64,000 nt of DNA from Thermodesulfobacteriota bacterium (GTDB taxonomy: Bacteria; Desulfobacterota_D; UBA1144): positions 1 to 64,000 of the forward strand of contig JAURPH010000011.1 of NCBI GenBank assembly GCA_030835345.1, in the 5' to 3' direction. How positions within the stretch are numbered: the first letter of the stretch is position 1; every line of letters starts with the position of its first letter. The translations under genes were made by a program, and so were the position numbers. The notes under the pieces are model-generated. The model saw only the letters and a program-made list of their open reading frames with translations, was not told where the DNA came from and did not search any database. This document shows, one piece after another, positions 4,460 to 37,375 of this stretch.

Positions 4460-5443
4460 CTAATTATTGATATAATTATTTTTTTTGTACCATTGGATAT
4501 TTTTCTCTAATATCTCTGACACAGTTAAGTACTTGTGATTTAAATCTTTCTGTGATTTGAGAGAGGTTGCTTGTGCACCTATTTCAATAGCTTTAAGACC
4601 ATCTATAGGTAATTTGGGTCTTTTTTTTGTGAAGAAGGAAATAAATTCTGATAAATAAGATATTAAATATAATTGCCATTTTGGAGTAATTTTATTTATT
4701 TTTGATATTTTCATTATTTCGCAAACTTCATCAAAGATCTCTCCTATTTTTACATTCTCACTAACAATTATATATTTTTGTCCTGGTAACATTTCAAGAA
4801 ATCTCAATGTTATTTTAATAACATCATTAATGTGTACCAATGGAATATAAGATTGAGGGCAGAATTTTGCTTTTATTTTTTTATTGGCAATTCCAATAAT
4901 CGTTTTACCAAATGTTTTGAAGTCCTTAGGCCCTGTTATAACTCCTGGATTTAGAACCACAATTGGCATCCCCTTATCAATATATTTTTTAACTTCCTTT
5001 TCAACTAAAAATTTTGATTTACTATAATCACTTTCAAAGTCACCCTTATGAATCGAATCCTCATTTGCTATTTCCCCTTTAGGTTGTCTTATTGCTGCAA
5101 TACTACTCATATGAATGATTTTTTTAACTTTAGTACTTTTAAGCTCATTTAAGAGATTTCTTGTTCCATTAACATTTATTTCATAATAGTCTTTCTTTCT
5201 TTTTAGCCACCATGCAGCAATATTTCCAAGATGGAAAACAACTTCTGCATTATCAAATTTCCCTTTAATTGAATTTGAATCTCTTAGATCAGCAAGAAAG
5301 CAGGTATATCCTAATGATTCATATTTATTCTTATCTTTCTGAGAGCGGACAAGCATGGTTACTTTATGCCCACTTTTCTTTAAATCTTCAATAAGAAAGT
5401 TTCCAACATAACCTGTCGCACCAGTAACAAAACATTCCAACAA
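4460..5443 (-). CDS. NAD(P)-dependent epimerase/dehydratase (extended SDR)
   Basis: Extended short-chain dehydrogenase family protein of 327 residues. It has the Rossmann GATGYVG motif at 8-14, the SS of the active site near 113-114, and the catalytic YxxxK as YSKSK at 140-144. The closest known relatives are the dihydroflavonol-4-reductase/HpnA-like and sugar-epimerase-like SDRs; the substrate cannot be told from sequence. The start codon lies 9 bp downstream of the preceding small gene (5453-5881), so the two form an operon. Its stop is 71 bp upstream of topB, which has its own promoter. Confidence 0.85.
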   Translation of the reverse strand: MLECFVTGATGYVGNFLIEDLKKSGHKVTMLVRSQKDKNKYESLGYTCFLADLRDSNSIKGKFDNAEVVFHLGNIAAWWLKRKKDYYEINVNGTRNLLNELKSTKVKKIIHMSSIAAIRQPKGEIANEDSIHKGDFESDYSKSKFLVEKEVKKYIDKGMPIVVLNPGVITGPKDFKTFGKTIIGIANKKIKAKFCPQSYIPLVHINDVIKITLRFLEMLPGQKYIIVSENVKIGEIFDEVCEIMKISKINKITPKWQLYLISYLSEFISFFTKKRPKLPIDGLKAIEIGAQATSLKSQKDLNHKYLTVSEILEKNIQWYKKNNYINN

Positions 5444-5452
5444 TTTATCTCT

Positions 5453-5881
5453 TTAAGGAACTATTATTTTCTTTTCTTCGTGGATAATTTGACCCTGTTC
5501 TTCTTTAGCTTTTTCTTGAGCTGCCTTTTGAGTTTCTAAAACTCTTGCCTCTATTAGCTGGAAAAGCTTAGCCTGAAAATCTTTATCAAAAGCACAAACT
5601 CTAGGAACTATGTGTCCCATAGTTGCAACTTGAACAAAGAACTCTGCATTCGCTTTAATGAAGTCGTCTGGCACATCTCCATAAACCTGTTTTAGTTGTG
5701 CATATATTGTTTGTTCAATTTCTTGAACAATGTTTGATAGTGTATCACCCTGATTCTTGGGTTGACTTTGTAAGCCAAGATTAAATGCATTAGCAATGGA
5801 AGTTTTAATTGCATTTAATGCATCCTCTGGACTTTGTGGTTGACCGGCAGGCCCACCTGGATTTGGATTTTCTTCTGACAT
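5453..5881 (-). CDS. Conserved-looking hypothetical protein, 142 aa
   Basis: Function unknown. The protein has a Pro/Gly/Gln-rich N-terminus, a central helical part, and a charged Gln/Glu/Lys-rich C-terminus likely to be coiled coil (about residues 105-135). No signal peptide or membrane segment is visible. An upstream TTG at 5899 would add six residues. I prefer the ATG at 5881 because AGAGGTG lies about 5 nt before it. It is followed after 9 bp by the epimerase gene and is divergent from the TPP enzyme at 5932, so the 50-bp gap must hold both promoters. Confidence 0.7.
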   Translation of the reverse strand: MSEENPNPGGPAGQPQSPEDALNAIKTSIANAFNLGLQSQPKNQGDTLSNIVQEIEQTIYAQLKQVYGDVPDDFIKANAEFFVQVATMGHIVPRVCAFDKDFQAKLFQLIEARVLETQKAAQEKAKEEQGQIIHEEKKIIVP

Positions 5882-5931
5882 ATTACACCTCTTATACAAA
5901 ATATATTATACTGTTTATTAACTTAAAGCCT

Positions 5932-7614
5932 ATGGATAAAAAAATTGATGGTGGTTTTGCTTTAGTCAAAACACTTAAAGAATTAAATGTAAAAGATATT
6001 TTCACTCTTGCAGGTGGTCATATCAATCCAATTTATAATGCCTGTAAAGAATTGGGAATTAGATTGATTGATACACATCATGAGCAAGGTGCATCTATGG
6101 CAGCTGATGCCTATGGAAGAGTTACCCGAAAACCAGGAGTTTGTTTAATTACAGCTGGACCAGGTTTGACAAATGTAATAACTGGAATGTCAGGTGCATA
6201 TTTGTCAAATTCTCCATGCATCTTCATTTCTGGGAAATCTGGAGTTGAAGAGAATGATCGACTTCCACTTCAAGAAGTAGATCAAGAAGCAATGGTAAAA
6301 CCGATTACTAAATGGGCTAAAACGGTTTACGATACAACTCGAATAACAGAATATACTGCTAATGCATATAAAATGGCAATAACTGGAAGACCTGGACCCG
6401 TTTATTTGGGTTTGCCTCACGAAGTTCTTTACGAAAAAACTGATGAGAACTTATTTGATATACCTCAAACGGAGTTTCCAGAAAACCCTGAAATTTCTGA
6501 AAATCTTGTGGATTCGATATTAAAAGAAATTGATAATAGCTCTAGGCCATTAATAATAGCTGGTAGTGGAACCTGGTATTCAGGTGCTTCAATTGAAATT
6601 CAAGAGATTTCTGAGAAACTTAATATTCCAGTATATACATTAAATTTTGGAAGAGGAATTGTAGATGACAATCATCCTAATTGTTTAGGCCAAGCAAGTC
6701 CTTCTGCCATGAATGCTTTTAAGAAAGTCTCTTCTGAATCAGATTTGATAATTTTATTAGGAGTAAGGCTAAGTTTATATATTGGCTGGGGAAGGACTTT
6801 TAATCCAGAGGCTAAAGTTGTACAGGTTGATATAGAACCCGAAGAAATAGGAAGAAATAGGATTGTAGATATTCCAGTAGTGTCAGATATCAAAAAGGCA
6901 CTTACAAAACTTAATTCTAAGTTGGACAAGATAGGTACTAATTTTGAATCATGGATAAATACTGCTAGGGAATGGAAAGATAAAGAATGGGAAGAAGTAG
7001 ATAGATTAAAAGCATCGAACGACAAGCCTTTACATGTTTTGAGTGTAGTTAATGCTGTAGAGAAGGTGTTAGATGGAAATGGCATGATTTGTATTGATGG
7101 AGGTGATACTCAAGCCTGGACAGACTCTTCTTACATAACCACAAAACCTGGAAGATATGTCAAAGGTGGACCTTTAGGATGTATGGGAGTAGGGGTCCCT
7201 TTTGCCTTAGGATCTAAAATCGCTTATCCAGACAGAGATGTGGTTTTGATAAGTGGAGATGGTGCAATAGGTATGAATTTGATGGAGTTTGAAACAGCTG
7301 TTAGACACAATATCCCTTTTGTCTGTATTGTTTGCAATGATCAATCTTGGGGAATGACAAAGCATCAACATTGGATAAATTATGGAAAAACTAATACTCC
7401 ACAAGGCCACGAGCTTCCATTTATTAATTTTCATTCAATAGTTAAAGAAATGGGCGGCTATGGTGAACTAGTAACTGATTGTTCTGATTTAGTTCCTGCA
7501 ATCGAGCGAGCCTTTAAATCTGGATTACCATCATTAATTAATGTCGCTACAAATCCGGATGCCACTAGTGCTGCTACTCATGCTATAACAGCGATGATGA
7601 CACCAAAAGACTAA
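5932..7614 (+). CDS. Thiamine pyrophosphate-dependent enzyme, acetolactate synthase-like
   Basis: A 560-residue TPP enzyme with the usual three domains: Pyr domain with catalytic glutamate E51 in HHEQGASMAADAYGR, a central domain, and a PP domain with an intact Mg/TPP motif starting GDGAIGMNLMEFE and ending in an ND pair. The post-motif stretch NDQSWGMTKHQH differs from true acetohydroxyacid synthases, so it may be a 2-hydroxyacyl-CoA lyase-, oxalyl-CoA decarboxylase- or sulfoacetaldehyde acetyltransferase-like enzyme; the reaction is unresolved. No ilvN-like regulatory gene is adjacent. An in-frame extension upstream to 5809 would overlap the divergent gene and is unlikely; ATG 5932 matches the family N-terminus. 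Compare the degenerate IlvB at 46840. Confidence 0.85.
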   Translation: MDKKIDGGFALVKTLKELNVKDIFTLAGGHINPIYNACKELGIRLIDTHHEQGASMAADAYGRVTRKPGVCLITAGPGLTNVITGMSGAYLSNSPCIFISGKSGVEENDRLPLQEVDQEAMVKPITKWAKTVYDTTRITEYTANAYKMAITGRPGPVYLGLPHEVLYEKTDENLFDIPQTEFPENPEISENLVDSILKEIDNSSRPLIIAGSGTWYSGASIEIQEISEKLNIPVYTLNFGRGIVDDNHPNCLGQASPSAMNAFKKVSSESDLIILLGVRLSLYIGWGRTFNPEAKVVQVDIEPEEIGRNRIVDIPVVSDIKKALTKLNSKLDKIGTNFESWINTAREWKDKEWEEVDRLKASNDKPLHVLSVVNAVEKVLDGNGMICIDGGDTQAWTDSSYITTKPGRYVKGGPLGCMGVGVPFALGSKIAYPDRDVVLISGDGAIGMNLMEFETAVRHNIPFVCIVCNDQSWGMTKHQHWINYGKTNTPQGHELPFINFHSIVKEMGGYGELVTDCSDLVPAIERAFKSGLPSLINVATNPDATSAATHAITAMMTPKD

Positions 7615-30767: not shown

Positions 30768-31373
30768 TCAATATTGAACTATCTCTGGATCAACAGTCCT
30801 CCACATATACCAAGTAGCTACACTACAGTAAGGGTTCCACCTTTTCTTAAGCATAGTAAGTTGTTTTTGATTTGGTGGGTAATTAAATTTATAAGTATTT
30901 GAAATAGCTCTTAGAAAACCAATATCCTGAATTGGAAAAATATTTAATCTATTTTGATTAAATAACAAAAACATTTCAGAGCTCCATCGCCCAATTCCTT
31001 TATTTAAGGACAAATAATTTATCGCCTCATCATCTCTCATTTTTTTTAATTTATTTATATTGAATTTCTTATTTATAAAGTTTTGAGAAAGCTCAGTTAT
31101 GTAAATTATTTTTTGTCTAGAAAAGCCACAATCTTTTAAATCATCAATTTCTAAATTGTTTATTTTCTCTGGAGTTATTTTTTTACATTTTAATAAAAGT
31201 TTTTTCCAGACTGAATCAGCAGAGGCAACTGAAACTTGTTGTCCAACTATTGATTTGCATAATGAATAGAATGGATCATTTCTCGATTTAAGCTTCCCAT
31301 CATATTTTCTTATTATCTTAGAAAGCTTTTTATCTTTCATGCATAAGTATTTCCTTGCTTGATTCCAGAACAT
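30768..31373 (-). CDS. DNA-3-methyladenine glycosylase (HhH-GPD, AlkA-like)
   Basis: Base-excision repair glycosylase of 201 residues. SIVGQQVSVASADSVWKKL near residue 42, helix-hairpin-helix LNKGIGRWSSEMFLLF near residue 125, and the catalytic aspartate in FPIQDIGFLRAI. No C-terminal iron-sulfur cysteines, so AlkA- rather than Nth-like. A TATAAT lies about 17 bp upstream of the ATG on the minus strand, in the 22-bp-plus divergent region shared with the methyltransferase. Confidence 0.88.
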   Translation of the reverse strand: MFWNQARKYLCMKDKKLSKIIRKYDGKLKSRNDPFYSLCKSIVGQQVSVASADSVWKKLLLKCKKITPEKINNLEIDDLKDCGFSRQKIIYITELSQNFINKKFNINKLKKMRDDEAINYLSLNKGIGRWSSEMFLLFNQNRLNIFPIQDIGFLRAISNTYKFNYPPNQKQLTMLKKRWNPYCSVATWYMWRTVDPEIVQY

Positions 31374-31395
31374 AAAGTAATTTTACCAACATTAT

Positions 31396-32022
31396 ATGTT
31401 TATAGATAAATTTAAATCTCTTTTTAAGAGTAGGTCGAGGATAGACAACAGCATTCCAAGATTTCAACTTAAAGAAAGAAATGTGAAAAATTGTAAGTTA
31501 TTGCTAAATAGAGATGAATTAATATCTTTAATACCTAAAAATTCCATAATTGCTGAACTAGGGGTTGATAAAGGTGATTTTAGTAAGAAACTGTTAGATG
31601 TTGTTAACCCTAAATTGCTATATTTAGTAGACATGTGGGGGTCAAATAGATATGGAAATGATAAAGCCGATTTTATAAATGATAAATTTAAATCTCAGAT
31701 AGAAAATGAGTCAATAAAAATTTTCCGTTCCGATTCAATTACGGCGGCTGAAAATTTTCAAACTAGTTATTTTGATTTTATTTATATAGATACTGATCAT
31801 TCTTACGAGACAACAATAAAAGAATTGAGAGCTTGGAAAACAAAAATAAAAGACGATGGAATAATCGCTGGCCACGATTATATGATGGGTAATTGGTTAA
31901 AAACACTCAGATATGGAGTCATTGAAGCAGTGCATCAATTTTGTGTTGAAGACAATTGGCAATTAATTTATTTAACAGCTGACCAAACAGAAAATTTAAG
32001 CTTTGCAATTAAAAGAATTTAA
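31396..32022 (+). CDS. Class I SAM-dependent methyltransferase
   Basis: 208 residues with SAM-binding IAELGVDKGDFSKKLL near residue 48, acidic YLVDMWGS at the end of strand 2, and FDFIYIDTDHSYETTIKEL with IIAGHDYM typical of the Methyltransf_24/cephalosporin-hydroxylase-like group. Substrate unknown. Only 22 bp separate its ATG from the divergent glycosylase start; the 3' end overlaps the next minus-strand gene by 4 bp. Confidence 0.8.
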   Translation: MFIDKFKSLFKSRSRIDNSIPRFQLKERNVKNCKLLLNRDELISLIPKNSIIAELGVDKGDFSKKLLDVVNPKLLYLVDMWGSNRYGNDKADFINDKFKSQIENESIKIFRSDSITAAENFQTSYFDFIYIDTDHSYETTIKELRAWKTKIKDDGIIAGHDYMMGNWLKTLRYGVIEAVHQFCVEDNWQLIYLTADQTENLSFAIKRI

Positions 32023-32351
32023 ATTCTTTCCAAAATCCACATTATTCTTTTATTTATTATCTCTTCCTCAACATTATTCTTAACAGAATAAATATTACTA
32101 GGCTTTTTTACTTCTCCATCTATTGTTATCTTCTCATATATAGAATTAGTACTATCACCTTCTGGTTCGATTGCATCATTAATATTTGTATATCCATATT
32201 CAAAAGTGAATTTGTCATATGTAATAAATATAGGAGCAGTAATTGGCTCTTTGTTTACTAGCTCATAAAAATTATTTTTAAAGAGGATGTATAGTTCCTC
32301 CTTAATATATCTCAACCTAATATCATTGAGCTCGTCCTTGTTCATTCCCAC
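32019..32351 (-). CDS. Hypothetical protein, 110 aa
   Basis: Unknown protein, no signal or membrane segment, acidic centre with INDAIEPEGDSTNSIYE. The frame opens at a GTG (32351) and has an ATG two codons later (32345); neither has a good Shine-Dalgarno sequence, so the start is uncertain by two residues. It could be real because the frame is long for this AT-rich sequence and ends against the methyltransferase gene. Confidence 0.5.
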   Translation of the reverse strand: MGMNKDELNDIRLRYIKEELYILFKNNFYELVNKEPITAPIFITYDKFTFEYGYTNINDAIEPEGDSTNSIYEKITIDGEVKKPSNIYSVKNNVEEEIINKRIMWILERI

Positions 32352-32444
32352 GCTAATATATTGCTATAAAAAAAATATTTTTGTAAAAATTATTAATATT
32401 ATTATGTTTAATAGACAACCTCCTGGTAGTCCAGAAAAATACAT

Positions 32445-32627
32445 TTATTTAATATCCTTTTTATTATAGTGTAAAAATAGTCCAATAATAATTATTAGAA
32501 GACCTATAAAAGCAGGTACCTTGAATAAGGCAATAATAAAACCAAATACAGCAAATAGAAGGCCGCCTTGGCCTAAAACTAGAATAAGTATTCCTATAAT
32601 AATTAAATATTTAGTTAATTTACTCAT
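32445..32627 (-). CDS. Small membrane protein, 60 aa
   Basis: Two hydrophobic segments (about residues 7-33 and 37-52) with a basic end HYNKKDIK; a glycine-containing hairpin of two membrane helices. No family recognised. Flanked by small AT-rich gaps. Low-complexity hydrophobic frames can occur by chance, but the charged ends and ATG start argue for a gene. Confidence 0.5.
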   Translation of the reverse strand: MSKLTKYLIIIGILILVLGQGGLLFAVFGFIIALFKVPAFIGLLIIIIGLFLHYNKKDIK

Positions 32628-32653
32628 AAATAATGTTTAATATTATATATTAA

Positions 32654-32743
32654 ATGAAACAATTAATAGAATTGATTAAATCTAAACCGATTTCTTTTAT
32701 TGTTATAGTTCTAGGATTGATTCTGGTTTATTTAGGAATTTAA
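32654..32743 (+). CDS. Possible single-helix membrane peptide, 29 aa
   Basis: ATG frame encoding MKQLIELIKSKPISFIVIVL then GLILVYLGI: a basic amphipathic start followed by one hydrophobic helix to the C-terminus, a common small-protein layout. No Shine-Dalgarno sequence; the stop overlaps the convergent gene end at 32740. Could be chance. Confidence 0.3.
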   Translation: MKQLIELIKSKPISFIVIVLGLILVYLGI

Positions 32744-33006
32744 GATAAATCTTTAGCTATAAATTCAAGAATAGGAGATAGCCCACTTAATTTTATATCC
32801 TGTTTTTTTAGGCTTCCTTCTTTCACCTGTGTTATTACTTCTTGGCAAAAATTATTGAATTCAAAATTGTATTCTTTAAAAAAAGTTTCAGAATCAGTTT
32901 CATTATCTTTTAATGTTGAAAATTCTATTTTTAATTTAAGACCTTTTACTTCTAATGCTTCCCATCTTTCAGAATAACTTTCTAAAAGACTTTTTTCACC
33001 ATTCAC
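32740..33006 (-). CDS. Small hypothetical protein, 88 aa (paralog of its upstream neighbour)
   Basis: Helical, charged protein. The pattern S/D-x-W-x-x-L near residue 13, then a Leu/Lys-rich helix, a Tyr near the middle and VK about 20 residues later, recurs in the 92-residue gene directly upstream, so the two may be diverged tandem duplicates. Its ATG overlaps the upstream stop by one base. Last gene of a four-gene cassette. Confidence 0.6.
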   Translation of the reverse strand: MNGEKSLLESYSERWEALEVKGLKLKIEFSTLKDNETDSETFFKEYNFEFNNFCQEVITQVKEGSLKKQDIKLSGLSPILEFIAKDLS

Positions 33007-33284
33007 TAGTCTTCCTCAACCAAATCTTCTATCTCATCAGCTAAAGCAGAATCAATGTTCCTTACTTCATCAAGAGTATAAAACTGATTTTTTACATTAG
33101 TAGCAATATTTTGTAAATGGGCATCATATATTCTTCTAGCACCTTCATAGTCTTCTCTAATGTCTTCATTGTCTTCATCAGAAGGTTTCGAATTATCATA
33201 TAATTCTTTTAGCTCTTGCCTTCTATCTAATAGTTGTTTCCAGCTATCTCTAAGACTTATTATAATTGCATCTGCTTTGCCCAT
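33006..33284 (-). CDS. Small acidic hypothetical protein, 92 aa
   Basis: Acidic helical protein beginning MGKADAIIISLRDSWKQLLD and ending in an Asp/Glu-rich tail (EIEDLVEED). No known domain. It abuts the DUF4177-like gene upstream (adjacent bases 33284/33285) and overlaps the 88-residue gene downstream by one base, so translation is probably coupled. Likely paralog of the 88-residue protein. Confidence 0.6.
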   Translation of the reverse strand: MGKADAIIISLRDSWKQLLDRRQELKELYDNSKPSDEDNEDIREDYEGARRIYDAHLQNIATNVKNQFYTLDEVRNIDSALADEIEDLVEED

Positions 33285-33488
33285 TTATAAAGCCCTCTTA
33301 AAGTAGCAATTATTATTGTAAACAGAAACAAGCTCCCAACCTTCTTTACCAAGAGAATTAATTTGTTCATGCAATCCTTTTTCAAGTTGTTGAGAATTTT
33401 GTTTATTTTTATTTTCGTAGATATCTAAATCATGACTATCACGATTATTGATATTTGAAAGATTAATTATTTTATATTCGAATTTCAT
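33285..33488 (-). CDS. DUF4177-like small protein, 67 aa
   Basis: Begins MKFEYKIINL and has LHEQINSLGKEGWELVSVYN near residue 40 followed by CYFKR. The EYK-start plus LGKEGWELVSV plus FKR-end layout is the DUF4177 signature. Function unknown. Its ATG overlaps the upstream gene stop as TAATG. Confidence 0.78.
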   Translation of the reverse strand: MKFEYKIINLSNINNRDSHDLDIYENKNKQNSQQLEKGLHEQINSLGKEGWELVSVYNNNCYFKRAL

Positions 33489-33664
33489 TACTCTGAAAGA
33501 TCGACTATCTCTTCATTATCTTCAATTACCACTTCTTCAGCATTATCTGCTACATCTTCTAATGATTCTAAATGTTTTTTATAATCATTATCGGTAATTT
33601 TTTTATCCTTATGTGAAGATGAAATAATCCTTATGTCGAAATTATTTATCGATCTATTATCCAT
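33488..33664 (-). CDS. Small acidic protein, 58 aa
   Basis: Short gene, 58 residues. The N-terminal half is polar and basic with SSSHKDKKITDNDYKKHLES, while the C-terminal half is strongly acidic (EDNEEIVDLSE). No fold recognised. AGGGG lies about 6 nt before the ATG. First gene of the cassette running to 32740; the TAATG overlap with the DUF4177-like gene argues it is translated. Confidence 0.6.
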   Translation of the reverse strand: MDNRSINNFDIRIISSSHKDKKITDNDYKKHLESLEDVADNAEEVVIEDNEEIVDLSE

Positions 33665-33688
33665 TTGAACCCCTATGAAAAATTGAAA

Positions 33689-33892
33689 TTATTTTGCTGC
33701 GCCAACTGCTTGGTTTTTACAAGTATCACAATCACATCCGACCATCCAGCCAAATACTTGAGATTCTTTATTACATTTAGAGCATGCTATTGTGAGCAGA
33801 TGTCCTTCTCTTCTTTTAACAGCATCTTTAACTTCCCATTTAACTACAGGTTGACCCGAGCAGTCCCAACAGATTCTTTTAAGTTTGTCCAT
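33689..33892 (-). CDS. Small multi-cysteine (zinc-binding) protein, 67 aa
   Basis: Seven cysteines in pairs: C8/C11 (CWDC), C37/C40 (CSKC) and C53/C55/C58 (CDCDTC), which suggests one to two zinc sites. GGAGG at 33902-33906 (9-nt spacer) supports the ATG at 33892. It ends 24 bp before the small acidic gene on the same strand, so it may head the same operon. Family not recognised. Confidence 0.65.
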   Translation of the reverse strand: MDKLKRICWDCSGQPVVKWEVKDAVKRREGHLLTIACSKCNKESQVFGWMVGCDCDTCKNQAVGAAK

Positions 33893-33949
33893 AAAAAAAG
33901 ACCTCCGACCCTAATATTTTCACGAAATATTGGATTTTGTCAATAATGA

Positions 33950-33955
33950 TATAAT
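33950..33955 (+). promoter_or_regulatory. -10 box of coaX, start-proximal
   Basis: Perfect TATAAT, 8 bp before the coaX ATG (33964). No Shine-Dalgarno sequence and only a weak -35 candidate. Confidence 0.45.
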
Positions 33956-33963
33956 GTTTTTTA

Positions 33964-34740
33964 ATGAGAATCTTAATAGATGTAGGTAATTCGGTAACAA
34001 AAGTTGCACTCAGCAAGGACTATAAAATTACTAATGTTAAATCCATTAACTATATTAAAAACAACAAATATCAACCGGAATTAAAAAAAGCTATCAAATC
34101 TATTTTATCAAAAAATAAAATATCAGATGTTTTTACCTCTTCTGTGAATAGAGAAGCATTGAAAATTGTTAAAAATGTCATTGCAGAATTTAAAGATTTA
34201 AAATTTAAAAATTTAAAAAGTAGAGAACTCCCAAACTTCAAGATTAAATATAAAAAAATTGAGAAATTCGGTATAGACAGATTCTATAACTGTTTAGGTG
34301 CAAGGAGTTTAAGTGTTAAAAATAATTTTATAATATTTGATATAGGTACAGCAACTACTGTTGATGTTATAGATAAAAAATTTAATTATTTAGGTGGCCT
34401 TATTATTCCAGGACCTCTAACATCTTTTTCTTCACTAATTGGATCAACTTCTATGATAGGAAAACATAATTTACTTATTAATCAAAAATTACTTGGTTTA
34501 TCTACTGAGCAGTGTTTGTCTTCTGGGTTTATTCAAAGTACCAGCTTAATGATTGATTCTTTATGCAAAAAAATATCAAAGGAGCTTGGTTTACGTTTTA
34601 AAGTTGTGATTACAGGCGGACTAGCGGATATATTCTCGAGACACATATCTATACTTCACAATAAGGACAAGTTCTTAATTTTTAAAGGGATGATTTATTT
34701 TATTGAGAACAATAACAAGTATGAAAATAAAAATTTGTAG
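33964..34740 (+). CDS. coaX: Type III pantothenate kinase
   Basis: First step of coenzyme A synthesis. ASKHA fold, 258 residues, with the phosphate-1 motif as MRILIDVGNSVTKVAL, GIDRFYNCLGARS near residue 100, FIIFDIGTATTVD near 122 and GGLIIPGP. Length normal. The next gene starts 20 bp inside its 3' end. Confidence 0.92.
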   Translation: MRILIDVGNSVTKVALSKDYKITNVKSINYIKNNKYQPELKKAIKSILSKNKISDVFTSSVNREALKIVKNVIAEFKDLKFKNLKSRELPNFKIKYKKIEKFGIDRFYNCLGARSLSVKNNFIIFDIGTATTVDVIDKKFNYLGGLIIPGPLTSFSSLIGSTSMIGKHNLLINQKLLGLSTEQCLSSGFIQSTSLMIDSLCKKISKELGLRFKVVITGGLADIFSRHISILHNKDKFLIFKGMIYFIENNNKYENKNL

Positions 34741-35071
34741 TTATAAAAACAAAATCTTTACATTTTTTTATATAAAGTCTTTAGGCAGAAAATTCTTTTC
34801 TTACGGAGAATTTGATTTTAAGAAAGAAATTACTTTTTTATCTACTGAATTTACGAACCAGAAAGAAGTTTTTGATGAGGTGGAATCAGAATTAAAGGTA
34901 CTTAAGATTATAGAAATTGATTCAATTGAAATTTTGTTCAAGTCAGATCTAAAATTTGAGATACTTTTACGCATTGAAAGTTTTAGAAGAAAATTAATTT
35001 CATTTGTTCCATTTTATGGAAAAATTTCTAGAAATAGGATATTCGTAAATAATGTCAAAGCTATAAATTAG
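34721..35071 (+). CDS. Hypothetical protein, 116 aa
   Basis: Unknown lysine- and phenylalanine-rich protein beginning MKIKICSYKNKIFTFFYIKS. No signal or membrane segment is convincing. It overlaps the end of coaX by 20 bp in another frame. A TTG at 34703 would add six residues, but ATG 34721 is more natural. Probably co-translated with coaX. Confidence 0.5.
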   Translation: MKIKICSYKNKIFTFFYIKSLGRKFFSYGEFDFKKEITFLSTEFTNQKEVFDEVESELKVLKIIEIDSIEILFKSDLKFEILLRIESFRRKLISFVPFYGKISRNRIFVNNVKAIN

Positions 35072-35112
35072 CACCTTGTTTCTTAGGAATCATCCGTGTA
35101 TTAATATTATTA

Positions 35113-35829
35113 GTGAAATCAATATCCTTACATGATTTAATAGTACAGCTTCAAAAGAAGAGTATAGAGTTGGGTCCAGATCCTAAAGCAACAGTTAGTT
35201 TGTATTCTGAATTAGGCTTGATACCACCACCGAAGATTAAGGCACAAGAATCATCAGATTTACCTCCTGAAATTTCCTATCCTCAAGACACAATAAAGAA
35301 AATTATTGAAATAAAGGATTTAAAGAAGAAAGGGTTAAGGCTTGAAGAAATTAGGGATACTTATGCATTGGATTATGTAAAAAGTGCAATCGAAGAAATT
35401 ATGGCAAGTGAAAATGAAGAAAAATTACAAGAGCTTGCAATTTTATTGTCAGAGGATAATGATAAGTTGTCCTCAGTTTTAGAAGCCCCAATTTTAAAAG
35501 TTATCGAAACTAAGAATTCTAAAGAGTTGAATCAACTTTTGTCCTTATTTGCTGCACAGAGCTTTTACGCATTAAATGAATCAAATGAATTATTAGAAAG
35601 CTATAATGTCAATGAAGCTAGAAAATCTTTGTTTAAGTCCATTTTTTATCTCTCAGTTATTTGTTTAAGGTTGGCAAGAAATAGTAAGAATAAAGTTTTA
35701 GAAGATGCTGCATTTGAAACTTATGATAAAATGGTACTAGGCCCTATTGATAGGGCAAGTAAAAAGGTTCAAGAAGAATTTAAAACCTCGTTTGAAAAAT
35801 ATTTAAAAACTAAGAAGATTGGTTCATAA
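35113..35829 (+). CDS. MerR-like transcriptional regulator (divergent)
   Basis: 238 residues starting at GTG 35113. The N-terminus contains ATVSLYSELGLIPPPK, a relaxed version of the MerR winged-helix motif (RYYERLGLIPP), and IIEIKDLKKKGLRLEEIRD matches the MerR second helix pair. The first HTH helix is atypical. The long C-terminal part is helical, without cysteines for metal sensing. The target is unknown. The start is not supported by a Shine-Dalgarno sequence. The 3' end overlaps cimA by 20 bp. Confidence 0.65.
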   Translation: MKSISLHDLIVQLQKKSIELGPDPKATVSLYSELGLIPPPKIKAQESSDLPPEISYPQDTIKKIIEIKDLKKKGLRLEEIRDTYALDYVKSAIEEIMASENEEKLQELAILLSEDNDKLSSVLEAPILKVIETKNSKELNQLLSLFAAQSFYALNESNELLESYNVNEARKSLFKSIFYLSVICLRLARNSKNKVLEDAAFETYDKMVLGPIDRASKKVQEEFKTSFEKYLKTKKIGS

Positions 35830-37375
35830 GTTTATATTCAACACTATCAATTAATGCTTTCCAACTTGCTTGAACTATGTCTCTTGAAACACCAATGGTT
35901 GACCATGAACTCTTTTTGTCTGATGTTTCTATAATAACCCTAACTAGAGACTCAGTGCCTTTATTGCCAGATACAACCCTTACTCTATAATCCATAAGTT
36001 CTATGTCTTTCATATCGGGATATTCTTTAATCAGAATTTCTCTAAGTGCATTATCCAAGGCATTAACCGGTCCAGAGCCTTCAGAAATATTTTCAAAAGA
36101 TTTATCATTAATTTTTATCTTTACTCTTGCTGATGATGTTGATGCAGGAACTATCTGTCTAGTATTAATTTCTGTTTCTATTAATTCAATTTTTGGTTTA
36201 TAAGCACCAATGGTTTCTTTTACTAATAATTCAAATGAGGCATCTACCCCTTCAAATTCATAACCTTCATTCTCTAAGATTTTTAATTTTTCAAGGATTT
36301 TAACAATGGAGTCATCAGAAATATTTTTTATTCCTAGCTCTTTTAGTTTGTAAACTATATTGCTTCTTCCTGAAAGATCCGAAATGAGAACTCTTCTTTT
36401 GTTACCAACTAAGTCAGGTTCAATGTGTTCATATGTTGCAGAATCTTTTATAACAGCACTTACATGAATCCCACCTTTATGTGCAAAGGCACTTCTACCA
36501 ACATATGGAAGCTTGTTGTTCTTTGGGAGATTTGCTAGATCATTTATGTAACTAGAAACAACAGAGAGTTTTTTGAGTTTTTCATTAGGAATGCACTCGT
36601 ATCCCAACTTAAGGTTTAGGTTAGCTATTATTGAGCATAAATTTGCATTACCGCATCGTTCGCCATAGCCATTAATGGTTCCTTGAACTTGAGTTGCCCC
36701 AGAAATTACAGCTTCAATCGCATTTGCTACACCAAAATCTGAATCGTTATGTGTATGAATACCTATTATGGAATTTTTAAATGCATTCTTGACTGACTTA
36801 ACTATTTTATTAATTTCTTGAGGCGTAGATCCACCATTGGTATCACATAAGATTATTCCCTTTGATCCTGCTTCTACAGCAGCTTTCAAACATTCTAAGG
36901 CATATTGATCATTGTTTTTAAATCCATCAAAAAAATGCTCTGCATCAAAAAAAACTTCATCAGTTCTTTCTGATAAATATTTGATAGAATCACTAATTAG
37001 CTCTATGTTTTCATCATTCTCAATTTTTAATGCAGTTTTTACATGAAAATCCCATGTTTTACCAACTATCGTTATAGCCTTGGTCTCTGCTTTTAACAGG
37101 GCTTGAATATTATTGTCATTATCGCAATTGCTACTAAATCTTCTGGTGCTACCAAAAGCTGAAATAATAGCATTTTCAAATTTTTCATTTTTAATTTGAT
37201 TAAAAAAAGCTTCGTCTCTTTCATTTGAACCTGGCCAGCCACCTTCAATATACCCAACTCCTAGTTCATCTATTTTGTGTGCAACTCGAACCTTGTCCTC
37301 GACTGAAAAAGATACTCCTTCACCTTGAGTTCCATCTCTTAGAGTTACATCGTAAGCTACAATTTTTTTATCCAT
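35810..37375 (-). CDS. cimA: (R)-citramalate synthase
   Basis: Condenses pyruvate and acetyl-CoA to citramalate, a threonine-independent route to isoleucine. 521 residues. DVTLRDGTQGEGVSFSVEDK at the N-terminus and GGWPGSNERD are CimA-type rather than LeuA-type. The HTHNDSDFGVAN metal motif and GTINGYGERCGNANL are present, and a C-terminal LeuA dimer/allosteric domain follows. It lies 3 bp after lysC, the last gene of nnr-tsaE-lysC-cimA. Confidence 0.92.
   Translation of the reverse strand: MDKKIVAYDVTLRDGTQGEGVSFSVEDKVRVAHKIDELGVGYIEGGWPGSNERDEAFFNQIKNEKFENAIISAFGSTRRFSSNCDNDNNIQALLKAETKAITIVGKTWDFHVKTALKIENDENIELISDSIKYLSERTDEVFFDAEHFFDGFKNNDQYALECLKAAVEAGSKGIILCDTNGGSTPQEINKIVKSVKNAFKNSIIGIHTHNDSDFGVANAIEAVISGATQVQGTINGYGERCGNANLCSIIANLNLKLGYECIPNEKLKKLSVVSSYINDLANLPKNNKLPYVGRSAFAHKGGIHVSAVIKDSATYEHIEPDLVGNKRRVLISDLSGRSNIVYKLKELGIKNISDDSIVKILEKLKILENEGYEFEGVDASFELLVKETIGAYKPKIELIETEINTRQIVPASTSSARVKIKINDKSFENISEGSGPVNALDNALREILIKEYPDMKDIELMDYRVRVVSGNKGTESLVRVIIETSDKKSSWSTIGVSRDIVQASWKALIDSVEYKLMNQSS

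Follow-up and report, generated by a model that had tools for sequence, protein, structure and literature searches.

The window analysed here is a 64,000-nucleotide stretch from the small genome of an ocean bacterium of the class Ca. Dadabacteria, which comprises 0.97 Mb in 15 contigs. At exactly the place given in the earlier note, positions 32740–33892, it carries five minus-strand ORFs encoding 67, 58, 67, 92, and 88 aa. The first gene, Cys67 (33689–33892), encodes a zinc-ribbon-like protein of 67 aa in which seven cysteines are invariant; 71 bases separate its start from coaX, which is divergent. It is followed by acid58 (33488–33664), encoding a 58-aa acidic protein, and by the gene for a 67-aa DUF4177 protein (33285–33488), which are the first and second members of a pair found across the class. 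The acidic 92-aa p92 (33006–33284) is restricted to family f1, and p88 (32740–33006), an 88-aa ORF with a GTG start, was seen only in the window genome. These genes had been described as overlapping or abutting as TAATG. This is correct for acid58 and DUF4177, which share a 1-base TAATG overlap at 33488, and DUF4177 and p92 abut with zero gap. The p92/p88 overlap is instead TAGTG, with p88 starting at the GTG, and Cys67 is separated from acid58 by a 24-base gap. Likewise, only three of the five proteins are acidic, with computed net charges of −10 (acid58), −13 (p92), and −5 (p88), compared with 0 for DUF4177 and +4 for Cys67.

Several further small ORFs surround these genes. A 29-aa hydrophobic peptide ORF (32654–32743, plus strand) is convergent with p88, overlaps its end by 4 bases, and is kept in 6/6 g1/g4 loci between p92/p88 and a 60-aa membrane-like ORF. 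The latter (32445–32627, minus strand) and a 110-aa ORF (32019–32351, minus strand) have a constant position and strand downstream of p92 in the five g4 genomes. After coaX lie a 122-aa ORF (34703–35071, plus strand) and the gene of a 238-aa protein with a weak, below cut-off MerR-like match (35113–35829, plus strand), in an order that is largely constant across the family. An Rfam scan of 31000–36000 gave nothing at gathering score, and neither of two terminator-like hits falls inside the five genes.

The region between Cys67 and coaX contains ATTGACAAA, which is invariant in 14/14 aligned family sequences, as are ATTT and GT downstream of it. This invariance matches the expectation for a −35 element. 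The probable operon promoter at 33916–33943 (minus strand) consists of a −35 TTGACA and a weak −10 (GAAAAT) and matches 10 of 12 consensus positions. The consensus scan is uninformative by itself, with 10 hits against 11.0 expected by chance, and it is from conservation across the family that we infer a sigma-70-type promoter at this site.

Conservation was followed through family f1 (14 genomes) and the whole class (57 genomes), with family loci examined in 12 relatives, G001, and the window. Cys67 and acid58 are present in 14/14 family genomes, DUF4177 in 13/14, and p92 in 12/14. G001 is without DUF4177 and p92 because its contig ends inside acid58. Cys67, acid58, and DUF4177 keep one order and strand in 13/13 family genomes in which the whole trio is assembled (12 relatives and the window). 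These 13 and G001 all have coaX divergent from Cys67. Close relatives conserve four of the five reading frames, and for these four the outcome named in the earlier note as refuting it did not occur. By comparison of sequences, these four are conserved genes, two of which constitute the core pair of the class, and Cys67-acid58-DUF4177 is a real and ancient operon. The earlier suggestion that tight coupling reflects one complex or regulatory unit fits these three genes, and fits acid58-DUF4177 strongly given the class-wide order, strand, and spacing of the pair.

Class-wide searches used profiles built from the family sequences and one distant relative. They located acid58 in 55/57 genomes and DUF4177 in 54/57, with one strong copy of the core pair per genome; four genomes have a second acid58 match, in each case weak and within a longer frame. 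The misses are G001 (DUF4177 only, at the contig end) and G047 and G055 (both genes), G055 being 59% complete. In 54/54 genomes with both genes the pair is adjacent, co-directional, and in constant order, as judged by comparing coordinates by eye. With start codons chosen by hand, stop and start share 1, 4, or 8 bases at 19/19 class loci outside the family; among 13 family loci, four overlap and nine are spaced by 1–5 bases. The same 19 loci give the ancestral order as an epimerase gene, acid58, DUF4177, and a convergent guaA. From reading the sequences, we take two of the neighbours to be guaA and guaB. The former is convergent within about 2 kb in 17/19 loci, mostly with guaB behind it, and the epimerase gene is beside the pair in 16/19, with a methyltransferase gene in between in f5 (epimerase and methyltransferase were named by Pfam). 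The window retains the relative orientation of the ancestral setting, with the presumed guaBA 3.3 kb away from DUF4177. The close spacing of the pair thus persists while its surroundings change, including in f1, where the neighbouring genes have largely been replaced.

The idea of one unit does not extend to all five genes, and the cassette was rejected as a single conserved unit on account of both p92 and p88. p92 occurs in 12/57 class genomes, all of them in f1, and was not found in G003. It is co-directional with the trio in g1 and g4 only, and in 6/12 genomes (five of g2 and one of g5) it is inverted and converges on DUF4177. Four of the five g2 loci (L019–L022) have p92 behind an ORF of ~800 aa on the same strand, as if in an operon; the fifth (L023) has only a shorter ORF before the end of the stretch. 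Matches of the window p92 to PriX and Med11 are below cut-off, and although 4/11 p92 members match PriX (best E 0.0014), both were set aside as helical look-alikes.

p88 was seen in the window genome only. tblastn gave no orthologue in the 12 family loci holding these surroundings, and the contig of the sole congener covered, G001, ends before p88. Up to E 1 the only hits are two weak ones (E 0.05 and 0.09), both inside p92 orthologues, and in g4 the position of p88 is occupied by a short spacer leading to the 29-aa ORF on the other strand. p88 has a codon-usage score of 0.306 bits per codon, with 2/43 spurious control ORFs higher, which does not decide whether it is a gene; the well-conserved DUF4177 ORF has a low score of 0.099. 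A further suggestion, that p88 and p92 are paralogs from a tandem duplication, is not supported. The p92 profile gives p88 4.2 bits, which is reached by 88/2000 shuffles of p88 and exceeded by five unrelated window ORFs. As a single comparison, BLASTP of p88 against p92 yields E 0.008 (18.5 bits), in an alignment that starts at residue 1 and is 22% identical across its 65 columns, and hhalign returns a Probab of 0.39. On these alignments we lean against p88 being a duplicate of p92.

Cys67 is more narrowly distributed than the pair. It was found in 21/57 class genomes (f1 14/14, f5 6/7, f7 1/1) and not in the other 36, of which 34 retain the pair. The f5 and f7 genomes have it away from the pair, at about 2 to 8 kb in the six f5 loci with both. 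It is divergent from a sigma-70-type gene in 4/7 f5/f7 loci (L132, L134, L136, L138), and in L132 Pfam confirmed the identity of this gene. Cysteines C8, C11, C37, C40, C53, C55, and C58 are invariant in 13/13 sequences of alignment A9. In the AF2 model (pLDDT 82, pTM 0.64) it forms a beta ribbon and a C-terminal helix. In Foldseek the best match of this model is weak, to an RNA polymerase I zinc ribbon (E 0.16), and in VIA NrdR reaches Z 4.9 with an rmsd of 1.6 over 43 residues, with no match at Z 5 or more. Searching solved structures by sequence with A9 gave a best E of 0.091. No viral relative was found among 19 candidate stretches, and a weak relative was found in Clostridia (L054, 33% over query residues 2–52).

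We know of no established function of DUF4177. The earlier assignment of the third protein as DUF4177-like was confirmed by a PF13783 score of 26.2 bits against a gathering cut-off of 25, and 23/23 aligned class members match this family at E up to 0.1. The protein is modelled as a beta-alpha-beta-beta fold (pLDDT 76, pTM 0.55). Neither this model nor that of Cys67 matched anything at E 0.001 in Foldseek or Z 5 in VIA, the best Foldseek E for DUF4177 being 0.46. Its VIA list includes acetyltransferase (GNAT) fragments at low Z. In PMC12456014, YjzH, a DUF4177 protein of Bacillus subtilis, is reported to be recovered bound to RNA and is said to resemble SpeG; the GNAT fragments fit this remark but are not evidence of kinship. 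PHROGs gave four weak matches (best E 0.00018), all to families of unknown function. The best match among solved structures by sequence, using alignment A8, is HicA at E 0.69, which was taken as chance.

The acid58 proteins share the motif D-x-R...G-x-I-T-x-x-[DE]-Y...L-x-D followed by an acidic tail. The class profile (A7), searched against 386 genomes, matched 72, comprising 55 in the class and 17/329 outside it. Of the 17, 16 are small stand-alone ORFs and one lies in a 614-aa frame (G078). A wider profile (A10), composed of 16 class rows and 15 of the 16 outside members, matched 7/7 genomes of one other phylum and 141/146 sampled genomes of a second, which is probably Myxococcota. Among the 31 A10 members the best E was 0.0028 in Pfam (one member) and 0.0031 in NCBIfam, and A7 reached E 0.022 against solved structures by sequence. 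By these searches the acid58 relatives are no good fit to any catalogued protein family. No description of the family or of its pairing with DUF4177 was found in the DUF4177, DUF1844, Dadabacteria, and Myxococcota literature covered, which included few subscription journals or preprints, or in the portions of PMC13118837, PMC12456014, and PMC8115339 consulted.

The surroundings of acid58 outside the class were compared in 40 genomes, consisting of 16/17 A7 hits, 20/141 genomes of the second phylum picked for complete, reduced, or divergent genomes, and four more from the phylum with 7/7 matches; the 40 are neither independent nor randomly drawn. About 5 kb was taken on each side, less at contig ends, and 1.5 kb for four genomes. 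Neighbour homologues were sought by tblastn (E 1e-4), for which the neighbourhoods themselves supplied the query proteins. Pfam gave the names DnaJ, rpoZ, DUF1844, rhomboid, and cyclase, and ClpB (L223), DegP (L161, L227, L233), and TruA (L215) were confirmed by matches to solved chains. Near acid58, DUF1844 occurs in 23 of the 40, DegP in 10, ClpB in nine, DnaJ with rpoZ in seven (all seven genomes of the 7/7 phylum), and truA in seven. At least one of DnaJ, ClpB, and DegP is present in 25/40, and these or DUF1844 in 31/40. Six of the nine neighbourhoods without any of these four have truA. The remaining three are L164 with a rhomboid gene, L163 with a diadenylate cyclase gene, and L165 with no neighbour named, the L165 ORF having been rejected as a rhomboid when it gave no match. 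In G437, a one-contig genome of 311,743 bases, the acid58 relative lies directly before truA (L214, about 5089–6188), as it does in five other genomes of its family.

In the Dadabacteria loci examined the pair has no chaperone or protease gene beside it, and no class-type DUF4177 was found near non-class acid58 in 73 loci (best E 6), some of which duplicate one genome. DUF1844 lies beside dnaJ in 10/13 Dadabacteria genomes examined (L245, L247, L248, and others), the window genome not among them; in another phylum it accompanies clpB or degP in the vicinity of acid58. A partner swap, in which DUF4177 replaced DUF1844 in Dadabacteria, was considered and is not borne out as a simple loss because DUF1844 is found elsewhere in 50/57 class genomes.

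The reading we prefer, and hold only tentatively, is that acid58 and DUF4177 form a complex serving protein or RNA quality control. The promoter at 33916–33943 would drive Cys67-acid58-DUF4177, to which p92 and then p88 would have been added downstream in the window lineage. acid58 and DUF4177 would be made in step and would most likely form a small complex. To this complex acid58 would bring a probable short two-helix hairpin and a soluble acidic tail, as read from its motif, and DUF4177 the small beta-alpha-beta-beta module predicted by its model. Most likely the complex would act as an accessory factor in quality control, because acid58 relatives outside the class lie near DUF1844 and ClpB, DegP, or DnaJ (the last with rpoZ), or adjoin truA. 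The role is thus carried over from only one partner, as the pair is away from chaperone and protease genes in the class loci examined and no class-type DUF4177 was found near non-class acid58. Cys67, with its narrower spread, may be a partner facing nucleic acid or RNA polymerase.

The main rival, which we consider somewhat unlikely, casts the operon as a regulator of transcription or an RNA-binding one, in which Cys67 would place a zinc ribbon at RNA polymerase or RNA, DUF4177 would bind RNA, and acid58 would serve as an acidic RNA mimic or buffer. The recovery of YjzH bound to RNA (PMC12456014) is in keeping with this, as are the adjacency of rpoZ to acid58 in 7/7 genomes of one phylum and the divergent sigma-70-type gene at 4/7 Cys67 loci outside the family. 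The weak zinc-ribbon matches of Cys67 to NrdR and to RNA polymerase I/III ribbon subunits point the same way; however, no fold match is strong enough to indicate more than a shared general arrangement, and the 34 genomes that keep the pair where Cys67 was not found count against this reading.

It is unlikely that these are unrelated small housekeeping genes sharing a promoter, with their adjacency inherited and no complex formed. Such a history would suit the strand changes of p92, the distance of Cys67 from the pair in six f5 loci, and the differing acid58 neighbours between phyla (DUF1844, truA, dnaJ). It accounts poorly for an overlap or spacing of ≤5 bases kept class-wide despite changing surroundings, f1 included. 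A toxin-antitoxin or defence module, as two tiny overlapping genes with the acidic protein first might suggest, is highly improbable given a single strong copy in nearly all class genomes in a conserved setting, no PADLOC match at E 0.1, and no viral Cys67 relative among the stretches searched.

A broader form of the quality control reading can be put forward for the acid58 family as a whole, though it is decidedly doubtful. acid58 proteins may be an uncatalogued family of small acidic adaptors for the disaggregase/DnaJ/HtrA machinery, or for its coupling to RNA polymerase and translation. They would then be core proteins in at least three phylum-level lineages, with the coupled neighbour (DUF4177, DUF1844, or TruA) changing between them.

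The conserved part of the observation exceeds what was first claimed, being a core pair of a whole bacterial class. As the pair is kept and coupled throughout, including in streamlined 1-Mb ocean genomes, it should do something basic. As far as we know, Dadabacteria are uncultured. Myxococcota include genetically tractable laboratory species, and with acid58 relatives in 141/146 sampled genomes of the phylum that is probably this one, the role of acid58 is testable in culture.

Each of the three operon proteins differs from the known family closest to it. SHOCT (PF09851) is a C-terminal domain of larger proteins, with a consensus resembling the acid58 stretch G-x-[IL]-[TS]-x-x-[DE]-[YF]. Two of 31 acid58-family members match it (best E 0.0067), and the window acid58 does not at E up to 1. 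acid58, by contrast, makes up a complete small protein, with D-x-R in its N-terminal part and a tail of acidic character. Its core is short and bears some likeness to SHOCT, so part of the long-range similarity of acid58 could reflect a common hairpin instead of descent.

Cys67 shares its CxxC...CxxC...CxCxxC pattern and predicted beta ribbon with zinc ribbons, including zinc_ribbon_6 (PF14599), YnfU (PF23499), and the NrdR and TFIIS/RPB9 C-ribbon fold, which gave its best but weak matches. It differs in that seven cysteines are invariant and its end is conserved as GA[AG]K, and the window protein is under the cut-offs of both Pfam families. For PF14599 it scores 17.3 bits against a gathering cut-off of 27, with 10/13 Cys67 members matching weakly (best E 0.0033).

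Within DUF4177 (PF13783), 55 residues of the window protein span 44 profile positions, indicating an extra segment, in which H19 is invariant in the class. The gene also differs in being regularly paired with acid58. The closest parallel to this arrangement is the acid58-DUF1844 pair of the second phylum, probably Myxococcota. There too a member of the acid58 family has a second small protein for a neighbour, and in L220, L221, and L223 the two genes overlap by 4 bases, but the neighbour is DUF1844 (PF08899) where Dadabacteria have DUF4177.
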